The translations under genes and the position numbers were made by a program. Under the pieces are notes generated by a model. That model did no database searches and was not told the DNA's origin. It saw only the letters and a program-made list of their open reading frames with translations. DNA of 8,086 nt from Candidatus Aerophobota bacterium (GTDB lineage Bacteria > Aerophobota > Aerophobia > Aerophobales > B3-G15), in NCBI GenBank assembly GCA_014859225.1, contig JACUUP010000066.1, forward strand, positions 1-8,086, read 5' to 3'. Shown here piece by piece: positions 1 to 8,080 of this stretch (position 1 is the stretch's first letter; every line of letters starts with the position of its first letter).

Positions 1-174
1 CCTTCCTGCAACTTCGGATGGCAAAAAGTCCTGCTTAATTTGCACGATGAAACTGCCAGGGATTATTGAACTATCAGAAGGTAAGCCAGAGGAAAAACTG
101 CAGGTAAAAAAAACAACACTCAGAGAAACTGTTAGCAGAGCTAACCAGATTTTACTGCATATCTTAGCTTTCAT
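1..174 (-). CDS. Secreted or membrane-anchored protein, N-terminal part; possible propeptide of a subtilisin-like protease
   Basis: Partial gene: 58 codons are visible and the 3' end lies beyond the left edge. The ATG (174-172) overlaps the carB stop as ATGA, which suggests translational coupling; the only purine-rich Shine-Dalgarno candidate (AGGGGG inside the carB tail) lies about 16 bases upstream, too far to be good. The product starts with a basic n-region ([10 protein letters not shown]), then a hydrophobic core ([13 protein letters not shown], residues 11-23), then TCSFSSG, which together look like a signal peptide. The Cys at 25 is preceded by FFT, a poor lipobox, so signal peptidase I cleavage or a membrane anchor is as likely as a lipoprotein. 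The following [20 protein letters not shown] resembles the opening strand of I9-type propeptides of S8 (subtilisin-like) proteases (PGxYIVxxK). That assignment is a pattern-based guess on about 25 residues. The existence of the gene is better supported than its function. Confidence 0.6.
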
Positions 175-3100
175 AAAAAAAGTGGTCTGTCCCCCTTTTC
201 ATAGTAATCCTGAAGTGCTTTTACCTGAAAACCTTTTTTTATGGCAGCTTCAATGCCATTAACTGTAGCTTGGGCACCTGAGATAGTAGTTATCACAGGA
301 ATGTATTGAAATACCGCTTCACTTCTTATTTTAGCTTCATCCTGCTTCATTTTCTTTTTACCACTGGGGGTATTAATAATAAGAGAAATTTCGCCATTTT
401 TAACGAGGTCCATAACATCTGGTCTTCCTTCGCCTATCTTAAAAACATTTTGTACCTCTATTCCTGACTTTCTAAGCACTTCCGCTGTTCCAGAAGTAGC
501 TACGATGCTAAATCCAAGGTCTACAAGCTTCTTGACTATAAATATGATGGCTCTTTTATCTTTATCCTTTACACTGACAAATACATTTCCCTTAAGTGGC
601 ACATTTTGTCCTGCGGCAATCTGGGACTTCATAAATGCTACTCCAAATGATTCATCTATTCCCATTACCTCACCTGTTGATTTCATCTCTGGACCTAAAA
701 CTGTATCCACACCGGGAAAGCGGTTAAATGGGAAAACAGCTTCTTTTATGGCAAAATGTTTCACTTCAACTTCTTTCAGGATACCAAGCTCCTTTAATGA
801 TTTTCCTAACATAACTTTCGTAGCTACCTTTGCCCAGGGAACTCCTGTAGCCTTGCTCACATAGGGAATGGTTCGAGAGGCACGTGGGTTAACCTCCAGC
901 ACATACACTCTGTCATTTTTAACTGCATACTGCACATTCATAAGTCCTTTAACTTTTAACTCTCTTGCCAGAAGATAAGTATTTTGTTTCATAAGTTCCT
1001 GAATATCTTTGCTCAAGGTATAGGGGGGAATGGCACAAGCTGAATCACCAGAGTGTATACCTGCCTCTTCAATATGTTCCATAATCCCACAGATAACTGC
1101 CTGATTTGCATCCGAAACGCAGTCCACGTCAACTTCTATGGCATCCTCCAGAAACTTATCTATGAGAACCGGATGCTCGGGTGATGCTTTAACCGCTTTT
1201 TGCATAAATTCATTTAACTCTCCCTCATCGTATACCAGCTCCATTGCTCTTCCACCCAGCACATAGGAAGGACGAACAAGTACTGGATATTCAATCTTTC
1301 TGGCAATTTTCCGTGCTTCAAAGACCGAGGTTGCAGTGCTACCTTCAGCTTGCAAAAGATTAAGTTTTTTAAGTAGCACTCTGAAACGTTTTCTATCCTC
1401 AGTTCGGTCAATACTTTCAGGCGAAGTGCCCAAAATTTTAACACCAGCTTCCTTTAATGGAATAGCCAGATTGAGGGGTGTTTGACCACCAAACTGAACA
1501 ATGATACCGTCTGGCTTTTCTTTATCAATAATGTTAAGTACATCCTCCCTTGTGAGTGGTTCAAAATACAATCTATCAGAGGTATCATAATCTGTTGAAA
1601 CAGTTTCAGGATTGCAGTTAATCATGATGGGCTCGTATCCCTCCTCTCGCAATACAAAAGCAGCATGACAGCAGCAGTAATCAAATTCAATTCCCTGCCC
1701 TATCCGATTTGGTCCTCCCCCTAAAACAATCACTTTCTTTTTTCTACGGGCACGAGACTCATCTATCGTCTCGTAGGTGGAATAAAAATACGGCTTATCA
1801 GGATTTACCTCACCTGCACAGGTATCTACCAATTTATACACTGCTTCAATCCCTGCGCTCATTCTTTTTTCTCGCACCTGTTCCTCCTTGCACCTCAAAA
1901 TATATGCCAGCTGAATATCGGAAAAACCATACTCCTTAGCCTGACGCAAAAGCTTGGGTGTAATAGTAGCTAAGCTATGCGTGTGTAAAAGATTTTCCAG
2001 CTCAACAATTTCCTTCATATTGTGTATAAACCAGCGGTCAATCCTGGTAAGTTTATAGATGTCATCTATTTCCATACCCTGCTGCAAGGCATAACGGATA
2101 TAAAAAAATCGCTCAGCATTAGGATAAATAAGTTTTTTACGAATTTCTTCCATATTTCTCTGCTCTTCCTCGGATATATCTTTCCCATCAGCGCCAAACC
2201 CATACCTGTCAGCTTCAGTGGAGCGAATCCCTTTTTGCAAAGCTTCTTTAAAAGTCCGGCCTATGGCCATAGCCTCCCCCACAGCTTTCATGGATGTGCC
2301 TAATATGGGGTCAGCCCCGGGAAATTTTTCAAAGGCGAAACGGCAAATTTTAAATACACAATAGTCCAGCGTGGGTTCAAAGAAAGCATATGTTTTTCCC
2401 GTAATATCATTTCTAATCTCATCTAAGGAAAGCCCTACGGCTAACTTTGCCGCTACTCGGGCGATAGGAAATCCAGTGGCTTTGGATGCTAAAGCTGAAC
2501 TGCGTGAAACACGCGGATTTACCTCAATTACTTTAACATCACCATTATCAGGGTTTACCGCATATTGTATATTCGCACCACCCCCGGTAATCCCGATTGC
2601 CCGAATAATTTTTTTAGATGAATCTACCAGATTATTATATTCTGTGGTACTCAGGGTCTGTGCCGGTGCTACCACCGCGCTATCACCCGTGTGAACTCCC
2701 ATTGGGTCAATATTTTCCATGGAACAGACAATGATTATATTGTCTTTGCAATCGCGCATTATTTCAAACTCAATTTCTTTCCACCCGATAACCGATTCCT
2801 CAATCAGAACCTGGTGTACCGGACTAAAGTCAAGTGCCCTTTTAAGAAAAACCTTTAGCTCTTCCCTGTTGTAAACAATTGAGCCCCCCGTTCCCCCCAA
2901 AGTAAATGCAGGACGCAAAATAAGGGGAAAATCAATCTTCTCGGCAAGCAAAAATCCCTCTTCTGTGGAGTAGGCAAGACCGGATTTGGGAACAGCCAGA
3001 CCAATAGATTGCATGGTATCCTTAAATAATTTCCTTGATTCGGCTCGAGCAATAGCTTCAGTTGATGCACCAATAGCTTCAACATTAAATTTGTCCAGGA

Positions 3101-3419
3101 CTCCCTTTTCCTTTAGAAAATATGTTATGTTTAAACCAGTTTGTCCACCTAAGGTGGGTAAAATGGCATCAGGTCTTTCCTTCTCAATTATCTTCTCTAC
3201 AAATTCTGGAGTTAAAGGCTCAATGTATGTACGGTCAGCCATCTCAGGGTCGGTCATAATCGTGGCCGGGTTGGAGTTCACCAATATAATGTGATACCCC
3301 TCTTCACGCAGAGCCTTGCAGGCTTGAGAGCCTGAATAATCAAATTCGCAAGCCTGACCAATTACAATGGGACCTGAGCCAACGATAAGTATCTTTTCAA
3401 TATCAGTTCTTTTTGGCAT
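171..3419 (-). CDS. carB: Carbamoyl-phosphate synthase large (synthetase) subunit
   Basis: Makes carbamoyl phosphate from bicarbonate, two ATP and ammonia, for pyrimidine and arginine synthesis. At 1082 residues it is full length (E. coli 1073). Order: carboxyphosphate ATP-grasp domain (about 1-400), oligomerisation domain (about 401-555), carbamoyl-phosphate ATP-grasp domain (about 556-935), MGS-like allosteric domain (about 940-1082). Active-site residues sit in register with E. coli: Arg129, Arg169, Glu215, Asn283, Gln285, Glu299, Asn301 and Arg303 in the first half; Gln830, Glu842, Asn844 and Arg846 in the second. The effector site keeps TSGTA (975-979), Lys994 and NTPSG (1016-1020), compatible with UMP or nucleotide control. 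The ornithine-site acidic residues Glu784, Asp792 and Glu893 are present. It starts one base after the carA stop, with a weak AAAAGAG as ribosome site, so coupling is likely. The last residues (KGDRPLFL) look like an added tail encoded by a GGGGACAGA-type repeat. The enzyme looks fully active, unlike its partner CarA. Confidence 0.97.
175..200 (-). repeat. GGGGGACAGACCACTTTTT-type repeat motif in the carB 3' end
   Basis: The minus strand reads GAAAAGGGGGACAGACCACT followed by a T run, and supplies the last codons of carB up to the tga stop. It is the sibling of the motif at 6582-6605. If it is an inserted repeat, it has replaced or extended the native CarB C-terminus. Confidence 0.35.
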
Positions 3420-3420
3420 T

Positions 3421-4464
3421 CTATTTACACTCTTTTAAAAATGCATCAAAGTCGCCCGGGATGTACTGAACTCCAAGTGCAGGATAATTTTTGCTTCGGA
3501 TTACCTCTATGCTCTCATCATTCATATTCACCTCGCTCACTTCTATATCATCCCGACAGATGGAAGTTTCATCAATCACAAAACAGTGGTTTTGAAGGGT
3601 GATTGCCACGCTACCTGTTTTTAGAGAGCGCACCGGTTGATTTACTCCACGATGACCACACTTCATTTGCTTTATTTTTGCTCCGAGCGCCAATGCTAAT
3701 AATAAATTACCCGAGGATATACCCAGGAGTGGTTTTTCCCCCAGAAGATTCTTTACTTTTTCCACTATTTTGTGAAGGCTTTTCAGGTCCTCTGGCCCTG
3801 CGCTAAAGATAATTCCATCAGGATTTAACGCTAAAATATCTGCGGCAGATGCCCGGGCTGGAAGTCTGATTACCTGACAGTTAGCCTTGTATAGATTGTG
3901 AAATAAGCTATTTGCTGCACCAAGGTCTACTAGAGCCACCCTGCAGGATATGTGCTCTGGAGCCTGCCAGAAAACTGGTTCAGAAGAAGTTACTTCCTGA
4001 ATGAGGTTTTTTTCCTCACACCAGGATGCCTTAATCTTTTCCTTAAGATTTTCTACATTAAAATCTTTAGTTGAAACTATACCGCTCATCTCGCCATTAT
4101 CTCTAAGATGAACTACAAGCGCCCGAGTATCAATTCCCTCTATCCCCACCACATTATTTTTTTTCATAAAATCCTGTAAGCTTTCCCTGGCTAACCAGTT
4201 GCTATAGATACGACTGCATTCCTTTACAATGAGAGCCTCTGCCTGGGCAACGGGAGATTCGTATCCCTGGTTATTAATTCCGTAATTTCCCATGAGAGGA
4301 TAAGCCATGGTAAGGAGCAAGCCTCTGCAGGCGGGGTCAGTCATAAGTTCCTGATAGCCAACCATTCCCGTGTGAAAAACAACTCTTCCTATTTTTTCGC
4401 CCTCTGCCCCAAAAGATTGACCTTCAAATACACAGCCATCCTCTAACACTAAAATTGCTTCCAT
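3421..4464 (-). CDS. carA: Carbamoyl-phosphate synthase small subunit with a degenerate (glutaminase-dead) amidotransferase domain
   Basis: CarA normally hydrolyses glutamine and passes ammonia to CarB. The N-terminal CarA-specific domain (residues 1 to about 150) is clearly conserved: [12 protein letters not shown] (33-44), [11 protein letters not shown] (55-65) and [18 protein letters not shown] (107-124). The class I amidotransferase domain (about 175-347) is not. The nucleophile elbow, usually GICLGHQ, is GISSGNL (248-254), so Cys is Ser250, His is Asn253 and glutamine-binding Gln is Leu254. The terminal HPE is IPG (335-337), so catalytic His and Glu are Ile and Gly. The usual SNGPGDP is SAGPEDL (221-227) and GxNHPV is GVNQPV (273-278). 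The loop after HPE is deleted, giving 347 residues against about 360-380 in typical CarA. The frame is open throughout. I chose ATG 4464 because GGAG lies 5 bases upstream; the in-frame TTG at 4467 is too close to it. Inference: a structural or regulatory subunit of an ammonia-dependent CPS. Confidence 0.93.
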
Positions 4465-4469
4465 CAAAA

Positions 4470-4640: not shown

Positions 4641-5669
4641 TCAGGGACAGATCACGGTGCGTAGTTCACCGCTAAATCTTTCCATTCCATCCATCACCTC
4701 ATTTATAAGAGTGGCTTCTAAAGGAATTTTGTCCGTCACCACACCTGATAGATCGAGTTTTCCCCGGCGAGCAAACTCAATCAGTAAGGGTAGCTCCTGC
4801 AATAGATGGTCAGAGGAGCCAATCACTTCAGCTTCTTTACCCAGAATATCTTTATAGGAATCAACCTCAAAGGGTCTATCGGTGATACCCACCAGGACAG
4901 CCCGGCCAAAAACTGTCAGTGACTGGACAGCTTGTCTCATTGTCTGGGGAAGCCCTATTACCTCCAGAGCAACATCTACACCTTTGCTGTCGGTCAACCG
5001 GTAAATCTTAGCTACAGGGTCCTCTTTTTTTGAGTTCACAGGAATGGCTCCGTATTTTTCAGCCAGTTTGAGCTTATCTTCGTTGATGTCCACGCCGTAA
5101 ACCTCAAGGGCACCGAAAGTCCTGGCAAGTTGAATTGCTGATATACCCAGTCCACCTGTGCCAAAGACAGCCACAGTTTCGCCAGCTTTCAGCCTTGCTT
5201 TGCGCAGGGCGTGAAAGCAGGTGGCAGAGGAACACATAAGAACTGCCCCTTGCTCGAAAGGAACCTCCTCAGGTAAAAAGATGCTATTCCGAGCGGGCAC
5301 AGCGATGTATTCGGCATAACCGCCATCACAGTGCTTACCGAGCATCATCCCCTGTTTGCAGAATTGCTCACTTCCGCTTGCGCAATAATAGCAGCTGCCA
5401 CAGCTTAGCTGATAGTGAATGCATACCCTCTCACCTATCTTTGGAGATGTGACCTGCGAGCCTACCTCTTCCACAATGCCGGCAATTTCATGTCCCAGGG
5501 TCTGGGGCAAAGGACCAACCGGGGATGTCCCGGCCCGGTAATGAACATCCGAGTGACAGATGCCAGCTGCCTTGATACGGACAAGCACCTCTTTTTCGCC
5601 TATGCGGGGAAGCGGTACCTCCTGCATCTGTAAAGGTTCACCTGTTCTGATAAGACGAACCGCTTTCAT
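4641..5669 (-). CDS. Zinc-dependent medium-chain alcohol dehydrogenase, NAD(H)-type
   Basis: Oxidises an alcohol or reduces the matching carbonyl with a nicotinamide cofactor; cytoplasmic. At 342 residues it is a typical length. The N-terminal GroES-like domain holds the catalytic zinc ligands Cys38 (GICHSD), His60-Glu61 (GHE) and Cys146. The structural zinc lobe has four cysteines (Cys90, Cys93, Cys96, Cys104), as in horse-liver-type and bacterial ADHs. The Rossmann motif is GTGGLG (170-175), and Asp194 at the end of the second strand favours NAD over NADP. The ATG at 5669 has AAAGAGG ending 6 bases upstream. The substrate cannot be told: primary alcohols, a polyol or an acyl-CoA-linked alcohol are all possible. 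It has no clear terminator, and carA's promoter starts about 30 bases later, so some read-through into carAB is possible. No functional link to carbamoyl phosphate is evident. Confidence 0.93.
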   Translation of the reverse strand: MKAVRLIRTGEPLQMQEVPLPRIGEKEVLVRIKAAGICHSDVHYRAGTSPVGPLPQTLGHEIAGIVEEVGSQVTSPKIGERVCIHYQLSCGSCYYCASGSEQFCKQGMMLGKHCDGGYAEYIAVPARNSIFLPEEVPFEQGAVLMCSSATCFHALRKARLKAGETVAVFGTGGLGISAIQLARTFGALEVYGVDINEDKLKLAEKYGAIPVNSKKEDPVAKIYRLTDSKGVDVALEVIGLPQTMRQAVQSLTVFGRAVLVGITDRPFEVDSYKDILGKEAEVIGSSDHLLQELPLLIEFARRGKLDLSGVVTDKIPLEATLINEVMDGMERFSGELRTVICP

Positions 5670-6581: not shown

Positions 6582-6605
6582 GAAAATAAATCTGTCCCCT
6601 TTTTC
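6582..6605 (-). repeat. GGGGACAGA-type repeat motif at the nuclease gene end
   Basis: The minus strand reads GAAAAAGGGGACAGATTTAT followed by TTTC, beginning inside the TAG stop of the nuclease gene. Its 15-base core (plus strand TCTGTCCCCTTTTTC, 6591-6605) differs at one position from the core at 186-200 in the carB tail, in the same orientation. From memory, similar strings recur in many bacterial genomes near IS200-like REP-associated transposases. No such transposase is in this window. Confidence 0.35.
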
Positions 6606-8080
6606 TACTTACCTACCTGTTTCTTTAACCACTGAAAGACTGCCCAGCTAGCTGCAAGGTCTTCTTCGTTGTACTTGAGTATCTGATCAATGATGTCCTG
6701 CCTCAGGTTGCCATCTTCAGTCTCTACTGCTTCAATGTACTTCGCCATGGACCATTTCGCACCGTATTCATTCTGACTGCGTTTGAAACCAGTACATCGT
6801 TCCACTACTTTTAGACTGTAACTTGGCTCTGCCAGAACCATTGCTTTTTTGGTCAAGGGAAGTAAATCCACAAGATTATCCAAAACCCTCTGAGCTACTC
6901 CCTTAGAATCACCGTATCTTTCCATGTACAACTCCACTTTTATTTTTTCGTAGTGGTGCCAGTGGACAAAAGGAATATCTCCGTATTCGTTGAATATCGT
7001 GCAGCAATTTGATAGGAAATCCTCCCAGCTTTTTTGATCCCCATCAGGGCTAATGGCTGATAGCGCGGGAATAAAAGGTCCTGGTTTTTCCCCATAGACC
7101 TGTATTCCCCAGAGGTATACTTTCTCCAGTTCATCCAGGTAGGGAGGAAGACCTTCAACGTCGAACATCACAAGGTTAGAATTATCTGGCAGATCAACTT
7201 TGTCTACCAGGACATTCATTTTTTCTTTCATCGCCCTGGCGTGAAAAAGAATCCCTCGAGCACTATTTCCAACTTTTCTAACTCGTGTCCCCCACGGTTT
7301 CTTCAATTGGCAAAGGGAAACCTCATCGTAGCTGGTAAGCAGATCATCAATGGTCAAAATACCCTCATCCTTCAAAACCCGGGCAAGGCTTTGGTCCACA
7401 CCGTACACAAGCGCTACATCATTTCGCTCAACAGCAACATCCCAGCATATTCTGCTAAAACCACACCCCTGACATTTTGACCAACCAACCGGGGAATAGG
7501 GAATATCATGTGAAGAAACAATATCCACCAATGCCTTCAGAACTTCCATTGCTGAATCTCCACCATCATAGGGAAACTCAACGATTGAGCCATCTCCTAA
7601 GAATGCTTCAAGTCTGGCAGGTTTACTCTGAGTATTTTTTTCATACAAATAGCCGTATACCTGCAGCTGGATAAGAATCTCAGGGTGCTTCTTTGCATCA
7701 GCATGCCGGGCGAGTTTGCAATCTCTGATAACATAGGAGATATCTTCATGAATCAGGATGTCTGGAACGCCTATAATTTGAACCTTGTATTCATTGATTA
7801 TCTCCTCAGCTACAAGTACCCCCTGATAGATTATGGGTGCATTACTCTGAATCAACTCTTTTGTCTTTTCTGGGCGTTGATTGGACGGTAGCCTGGAGAC
7901 GTTAACATATTCCCCCAGAGAATCAATGTGGTTTTTCTCATGCCTTTGACCCAGCCTGAATATCACCTGTTCAAATGGTCCGGGAGAAGCTTCTTTTTCT
8001 CCAATAAAACGATAAAATAGACGCCTTTCGCACTGAGATGGTGCATAAAAATCATAGATATTTTGAACTGTTAGTTTCAT
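6605..8080 (-). CDS. TM0106-type RecB/Cas4-like nuclease with C-terminal RNase H-fold domain
   Basis: A 491-residue protein that I assign to the TM0106 family of RecB-like putative nucleases from its layout. The N-terminal half is a Cas4/AddB-like PD-(D/E)XK domain: GVPD (104-107, metal-binding Asp107), Asp120-Cys-Lys122 as the (D/E)xK pair, and Gln138xxxTyr142. Cys17, Cys203, Cys206 and Cys212 are spaced like the one-plus-three cysteines that hold the 4Fe-4S cluster in Cas4 and AddB. A helix-hairpin-helix-like stretch follows (about 228-285, with LKDEGILTIDDLL). The C-terminal half resembles an RNase H-like 3'-5' exonuclease domain: Asp307-Val-Glu309, HWHHYEK (373-379), Asp401/Asp405 and YNEEDLAAS (470-478, Asp474). 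Both nuclease sites look intact. ATG 8080 fits the family start, but only 6 bases upstream are visible, so the ribosome site cannot be checked. DNA repair or defence-related end processing is possible; no cas genes are nearby in the window. Confidence 0.88.
   Translation of the reverse strand: MKLTVQNIYDFYAPSQCERRLFYRFIGEKEASPGPFEQVIFRLGQRHEKNHIDSLGEYVNVSRLPSNQRPEKTKELIQSNAPIIYQGVLVAEEIINEYKVQIIGVPDILIHEDISYVIRDCKLARHADAKKHPEILIQLQVYGYLYEKNTQSKPARLEAFLGDGSIVEFPYDGGDSAMEVLKALVDIVSSHDIPYSPVGWSKCQGCGFSRICWDVAVERNDVALVYGVDQSLARVLKDEGILTIDDLLTSYDEVSLCQLKKPWGTRVRKVGNSARGILFHARAMKEKMNVLVDKVDLPDNSNLVMFDVEGLPPYLDELEKVYLWGIQVYGEKPGPFIPALSAISPDGDQKSWEDFLSNCCTIFNEYGDIPFVHWHHYEKIKVELYMERYGDSKGVAQRVLDNLVDLLPLTKKAMVLAEPSYSLKVVERCTGFKRSQNEYGAKWSMAKYIEAVETEDGNLRQDIIDQILKYNEEDLAASWAVFQWLKKQVGK

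Follow-up and report, generated by a model that had tools for sequence, protein, structure and literature searches.

The window, an 8086-base stretch that is the whole of contig C171 of genome G000 (a draft of 1.8 Mb, 91% complete and 0.35% contaminated), carries on its reverse strand a paralogue of the small subunit of carbamoyl-phosphate synthetase (CPS), carA2, followed by a full-length CPS large subunit gene, carB2 (Table 1). One base separates the two genes (TAG A ATG), a junction that suggests translational coupling. The carA2 frame (4464..3421) is open and intact, as the first-pass annotation had read it, with an alternative TTG start possible at 4467. In a profile search, CarA2 lies above the curated cut-offs of PF00988, PF00117 (GATase) and TIGR01368 (CPSaseIIsmall); the first of these bears out the earlier claim of a well-kept N-terminal domain. 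The protein has the CPSase_sm_chain and class-I GATase domains of a CPS small subunit, and a carB gene adjoins. (What this means operationally is that automatic annotation would name CarA2 glutamine-hydrolysing, since it passes all three cut-offs.) Upstream of carA2 and on the same strand lies a gene for a Zn-dependent alcohol-dehydrogenase-like protein (4641-5669) that is nearest to L-threonine 3-dehydrogenase but under that cut-off; in G006, a genome from another family of the same order, the zinc dehydrogenase gene is not beside carA2. Positions 6605-8080 encode a TM0106-family RecB-like nuclease with an RNase_H_2 domain, above the curated cut-off.

Table 1. Features of the carA2-carB2 locus, with the loci of a gene following carB2 in other genomes (positions are those of the window unless a locus is named).
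Feature	Position	Strand	Remarks
carA2, CPS small-subunit paralogue with dead glutaminase domain	3421..4464	-	347 aa from ATG; stop TAG 3423-3421
carB2, full-length CPS large subunit	171..3419	-	1082 aa
CarA N-terminal CPSase_sm_chain domain (PF00988)	4075..4452	-	well kept
class-I GATase domain (PF00117)	3463..3933	-	residues 178-334; fold-forming segments retained but active site lost
Ser250 for catalytic Cys269	3715..3717	-	Ser or Ala in 14/14 of dead clade
Ile335 for catalytic His353	3460..3462	-	Tyr/Val/Ile/Cys across dead clade
Gly337 for catalytic Glu355	3454..3456	-	deleted in 12/14 of dead clade
Glu225 for Gly243 of SNGPGDP loop	3790..3792	-	Glu in 14/14 of dead clade, Gly in 121/121 live CarA
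Leu254 for glutamine-binding Gln273	3703..3705	-	
Ala45 for glutamine-site Ser47	4330..4332	-	
Ala184 for Lys202	3913..3915	-	
PurF-like loci after carB2	L107:5669-7000, L111:4574-5998, L310:7542-8942, L313:12669-14072, L316:5170-6642		families f120/f190

Residue numbers in comparisons are those of E. coli CarA; the window's own numbers are used where Ser250 and the like are given. The Cys269-His353-Glu355 triad of glutamine-hydrolysing CPS II, which is present in 121 of the 139 CarA sequences gathered, is replaced in CarA2 by Ser, Ile and Gly, and the Ser47/Gly243/Gln273 glutamine site by Ala, Glu and Leu; the loop after HPE (Pro354) is deleted. Alignment confirms every replacement that had been read from the window by eye (Ser250, Leu254, Ile335, Gly337, S221-AGPEDL and the loop deleted after HPE). 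At columns conserved to at least 97%, the departures of CarA2 are E29R, S47A, Y48C, Q51L, K202A, G243E, P245L, C269S, Q273L, K285Q, F288C, G339V and H353I, to which E355G is added. Among the 121 live CarA, 56 positions reach at least 97% conservation; 46 of them are retained across the dead clade, and the ten that it has lost (Y48, Q51, K202, G243, P245, C269, Q273, F288, G339 and H353) are mostly in or near the glutamine site. The original statement that all changes fall on glutamine hydrolysis thus holds for most of them, but not obviously for E29R and K285Q. Huang and Raushel (1999, 'Deconstruction of the catalytic array') reportedly mutated Glu355, Ser47, Lys202 and Gln273 as a catalytic array; the window's CarA2 differs at each of the four. 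A role for Ser250 as a new serine nucleophile is disfavoured: His and Glu are gone, and one clade member has Ala at this position, so that a serine nucleophile is not required. A structure prediction for CarA2 from a two-row alignment was discarded (pLDDT 36).

CarB2 has both ATP-grasp halves of a CPS large subunit with their metal and ATP residues, and the C-terminal domain. R129, R169, E215, H243, Q285, E299, N301 and R303 are kept in 13 of 13 CarB2, the catalytic motifs of the C half are present, and the clade departs from the near-invariant residue at only 5 of 115 N-half columns. One of these five is Cys232, which is Thr in 11 of the 13 and Cys in the window and G006, and which is here equated with Cys648, the ammonia-gate residue of CPS1 (PMC4655335). 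Judged by the bicarbonate and ATP residues checked, the chemistry of CarB2 is predicted to be intact.

A survey of 386 genomes across bacteria, with targeted looks at five further phyla, found the same CarA2 paralogue in 15 genomes of six candidate phyla (14 are tabulated), counts that are not an estimate of frequency, since the survey drew on the matches most like the dead type. Gly243 is changed to Glu and Cys269 to Ser or Ala in all 14. The orthologue in G006 is 65% identical to the window's CarA2 and has the same losses, and the adjoining CarB2 is 83% identical. Outside the window's order the motifs are GPE-x-D, GIS-x-GHE and QYYP-x-SPGFDE, with Tyr for His and deletion of Glu. A conserved operon partner of carA2/carB2 was sought across the family, and none was found.

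The CarA tree alone groups the dead sequences with only 91% SH-aLRT and has long branches; the N half of CarB, which is independent of the glutaminase residues, was therefore used. In this tree the CarB partners of dead CarA (13 of 13) form one clade (ultrafast bootstrap 100, SH-aLRT 100) that is separate from the canonical CarB carried by these genomes, which implies that carA2/carB2 is an ancient paralogue and not a recent duplicate. The window pair belongs to this clade by its CarB placement, by Gly243 to Glu and by Cys269 to Ser. Recent duplication in the window lineage, with the window pair grouped with its own canonical CarB, is rejected (AU p=9e-7). Thus, what had been taken for a lone odd gene has real losses, but it belongs to an old paralogous family. 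The CarB tree requires a minimum of two switches between live and dead. The second loss is in Fusobacteriota-type genomes, with triads V/M/D and G/N/E, whose CarB falls elsewhere in the tree; a single origin of all dead CarA including these is rejected (AU p=0.00014), and the Fusobacteriota loss is independent of that in the candidate phyla. The Fusobacteriota-type CarA with lost triads are at L128:6189-7220 (G038) and L033:5001-6083 (a Fusobacteriaceae MAG); in G038, which is 99% complete, the dead protein is the only CarA found.

Nei-Gojobori estimates of dN/dS from close pairs in families f190 and f120 are 0.06-0.35 for the dead GATase domain, with most values at 0.12-0.20, and 0.09-0.24 for the N domain of the same proteins; live CarA of these genomes gives 0.09-0.30. 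The values for the dead domain are far below 1 and similar to those of live CarA, which implies that it is kept by purifying selection. Between the window and G006, synonymous sites are saturated, and identity is 57% in the GATase domain and 73% in the N domain; this lesser conservation of the GATase domain leaves room for relaxation in that branch. The CarB2 frame of G006 (G006:C78, L041:2457-5693) is interrupted once, by an in-frame TGA in place of a conserved Gly codon (GGGPNRI*QGIEF), and is otherwise intact; the TGA is an assembly error, a polymorphism or early decay. On these two observations, relaxation of selection in the window/G006 branch is possible.

The four genomes of genus g211 in family f190 (96, 92, 86 and 83% complete) have dead CarA only and one CarB each, together with ATCase/OTCase-family genes; in one of them a contig ends in a further CarA fragment of 46 aa, likewise of the dead type. 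Comparison with relatives, which the first-pass annotation had put forward as the check on its reading, shows the same positions lost as a clade with dN/dS well below 1. Its central claim, that the glutaminase was lost under retained selection, is supported by the occurrence in 15 genomes of six phyla, by the low dN/dS and by this genus in which the dead CarA is the sole one found.

Most other genomes bearing carA2 also have a live carA1. That of the window genome is on contig C257, with a half-length carB-N and then mnmG; its product has the triad intact and is 41% identical to CarA2. A second intact carA as the real partner of CarB had been named at the outset as a threat to the interpretation; such a gene exists, but it is no close relative at this identity, and it has a different, split CarB. 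The canonical second CPS of these phyla is split in this way, carA1 being with carB-N and carB-C with pyrC. In relatives, carB-C lies between pyrC and a gene that we take to be Ndk-like from the start of its protein (L319 = G006:C15, L060 = G002:C29). The window genome has pyrB and pyrC, and only ~26 bases without a carB-C remnant separate pyrC from the Ndk-like gene (L318:3727-6190, G000:C263); a search of the rest of that assembly for carB-C found none. Deletion of the canonical carB-C makes carB2 the only complete large subunit found in this genome, with the caveats that carB-C could have been relocated to a part of the genome missing from the assembly and that in Aquifex a CPS.A half on its own can catalyse both partial reactions (PMC6022934).

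The residues lost from CarA2 and kept in CarB2, the purifying selection, the single clade of CarB partners and genus g211, where this is the sole CPS found, make it probable that carA2-carB2 encodes an ammonia-dependent CPS, convergent with vertebrate CPS I. CarB2 would form carboxyphosphate from bicarbonate and ATP, NH3 would attack carboxyphosphate to give carbamate, and a second ATP would turn carbamate into carbamoyl phosphate. CarA2 would be kept as a structural or regulatory partner holding CarB2 in its active shape; as it would not hydrolyse glutamine, NH3 would have to be taken up from solution or be supplied by an ammonia-releasing enzyme nearby. (Glutamate dehydrogenase, one such enzyme, adjoins carA2/carB2 in one genome, G351.) The lack of glutaminase activity, the use of ammonia and its route of entry are what we infer for CarA2-CarB2; in human CPS1, Ser in place of Cys explains ammonia dependence, and ammonia from outside is believed to take a different way in (PMC4655335). 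Against the proposal, E. coli CPS needs very high concentrations of ammonia to react with it (PMC6245113); the activity is a predicted one, and an adaptation of CarB2 in its affinity for ammonia is putative. A broader version is offered tentatively, as one that may well not hold in full: that bacteria of several candidate phyla make carbamoyl phosphate (in some genera all of it) from free ammonia through an ancient CPS family whose pocket, with its invariant Glu243, was rebuilt to serve a new function, for example recruiting or sensing ammonium, the Fusobacteriota being convergent.

Ammonia would also be the nitrogen source if the altered pocket bound a new ligand and made CarA2 an allosteric sensor, an unlikely reading that draws on the newly acquired acidic residues (Glu243 in 14 of 14 and, in the wider clade, frequent Glu or Asp at 273, 245 and 339); the proteins of the window and G006 have no acidic residue at 245, 273 or 339, and the ligand is hypothetical. 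It is less likely still that CarA2 docks another ammonia producer (glutamate dehydrogenase, a PurF-like protein or some other deaminase), the NH3 being channelled to CarB2 and not free. A glutamate dehydrogenase gene does adjoin carAB2 in G351, in G006 one lies upstream of carA1, and a PurF-like gene follows carB2 in families f120 and f190, but the neighbours of carAB2 are not conserved across the family and neither gene adjoins it in the window. The PurF-like protein (TIGR01134, under the cut-off) starts MSGIFG, with Ser for the catalytic N-terminal Cys of class-II amidotransferases; it may be another amidotransferase of this cluster whose glutaminase is dead, and this Ser speaks against its acting as the docked ammonia producer.

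The live CarA1 of the window genome might pair with CarB2, which counts against ammonia dependence. That CarA1 serves CarB2 in trans, CarA2 being a regulatory decoy or on its way to loss in the window lineage, is nevertheless judged improbable: the intact, triad-bearing carA1 of this and most other genomes and the faster change of the GATase domain between G000 and G006 have to be set against the four g211 genomes with no other CarA, the one-base spacing of carA2 and carB2, as in coupled translation, the position of carA1 beside its own carB-N, and purifying selection on CarA2 elsewhere. All genomes used here are draft assemblies, the window is a contig of only 8 kb, and CarB2 of G006 has a stop. 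A pseudogene, sequencing error or mis-binned contig is nonetheless highly improbable given the intact frames, the dN/dS far below 1, the spread over 15 genomes of six phyla and the same-order orthologue, which at 65% identity has the same losses and also opposes the error or chimera that the first-pass annotation had allowed for; for the family as a whole this explanation is already refuted.

The preferred reading, an ammonia-dependent synthetase, has its closest parallel in vertebrate CPS1, which likewise has intact synthetase halves and keeps a glutaminase-like domain that is inactive and has Ser in place of the catalytic Cys; ammonia is its demonstrated nitrogen source and the predicted one of CarA2-CarB2 (PMC4655335). 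(The inactivity of the domain in CarA2 is read from its residues.) In contrast, CPS1 is a single mitochondrial chain activated by NAG, while carA2-carB2 encodes two bacterial polypeptides, and CarA2 has also lost His, Glu, Gln273, Ser47, Lys202 and Gly243. There is neither fusion into one polypeptide nor common descent with CPS1: CarA2 scores 154 bits to CPS1 and ~200 to E. coli CarA, and both window proteins are closer by score to E. coli CarA/CarB than to human CPS1, which implies that the likeness to CPS I is convergent and did not arise by descent within CPS I. (The C-terminal domain of CarB2 aligns to both E. coli CarB and CPS1.) With E. coli CarAB, a CPS II, the pair shares its two-subunit architecture and operon order, and CarB2 matches E. 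coli CarB over its full length, but without the glutaminase residues CarA2 falls outside the 'glutamine-hydrolysing' definition despite TIGR01368. The Aquifex-type CPS, with separate CPS.A, CPS.B and GLN genes, is split as is the canonical second system of these phyla; the window's carA2-carB2 is unsplit, with a dead glutaminase. Single-domain NAD synthetases are another bacterial amide-donor family in which ammonia replaces glutamine (PMC3376133), but there the glutaminase domain is absent, while in CarA2 it is present, dead and conserved. The anabolic carbamate kinase of Pyrococcus is a prokaryotic ammonia-dependent source of carbamoyl phosphate (PMC6022934) with an amino-acid kinase fold, whereas CarB2 is an ATP-grasp protein.

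Reviews name glutamine as the nitrogen donor that E. coli CPSase uses physiologically and, 'by extension', as that of every bacterial CPSase (PMC6245113); CPS1 is described as the sole CPS type that does not use it (PMC4655335). At the level of sequence this rule is contradicted by the dead glutaminase that a bacterial family conserves; no report of a bacterial glutaminase-dead CarA was found in the openly licensed full texts searched. The CarAB architecture with a CPS I-like loss has evolved in bacteria at least twice, so that the dead CarA2 family is an independent evolutionary replicate of the transition from CPS II to CPS I, and it makes testable why an inactive glutaminase subunit stays. 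The automatic 'glutamine-hydrolyzing' label misnames genes of the carA2 type and leads metabolic models of uncultured bacteria to route nitrogen wrongly.

Some further variation was seen among related genomes. Those of family f6, in the window's phylum (L054, L055, L057 and L058), have full-length CarB, several of them without any CarA found, the CPS large subunit there having no glutaminase partner, and in L055 this CarB gene adjoins a dihydroorotase gene. In a pyrimidine operon at L129 (G031:C85), CarA has Asn for the catalytic His (C-N-E), while the close relative L143 is intact.
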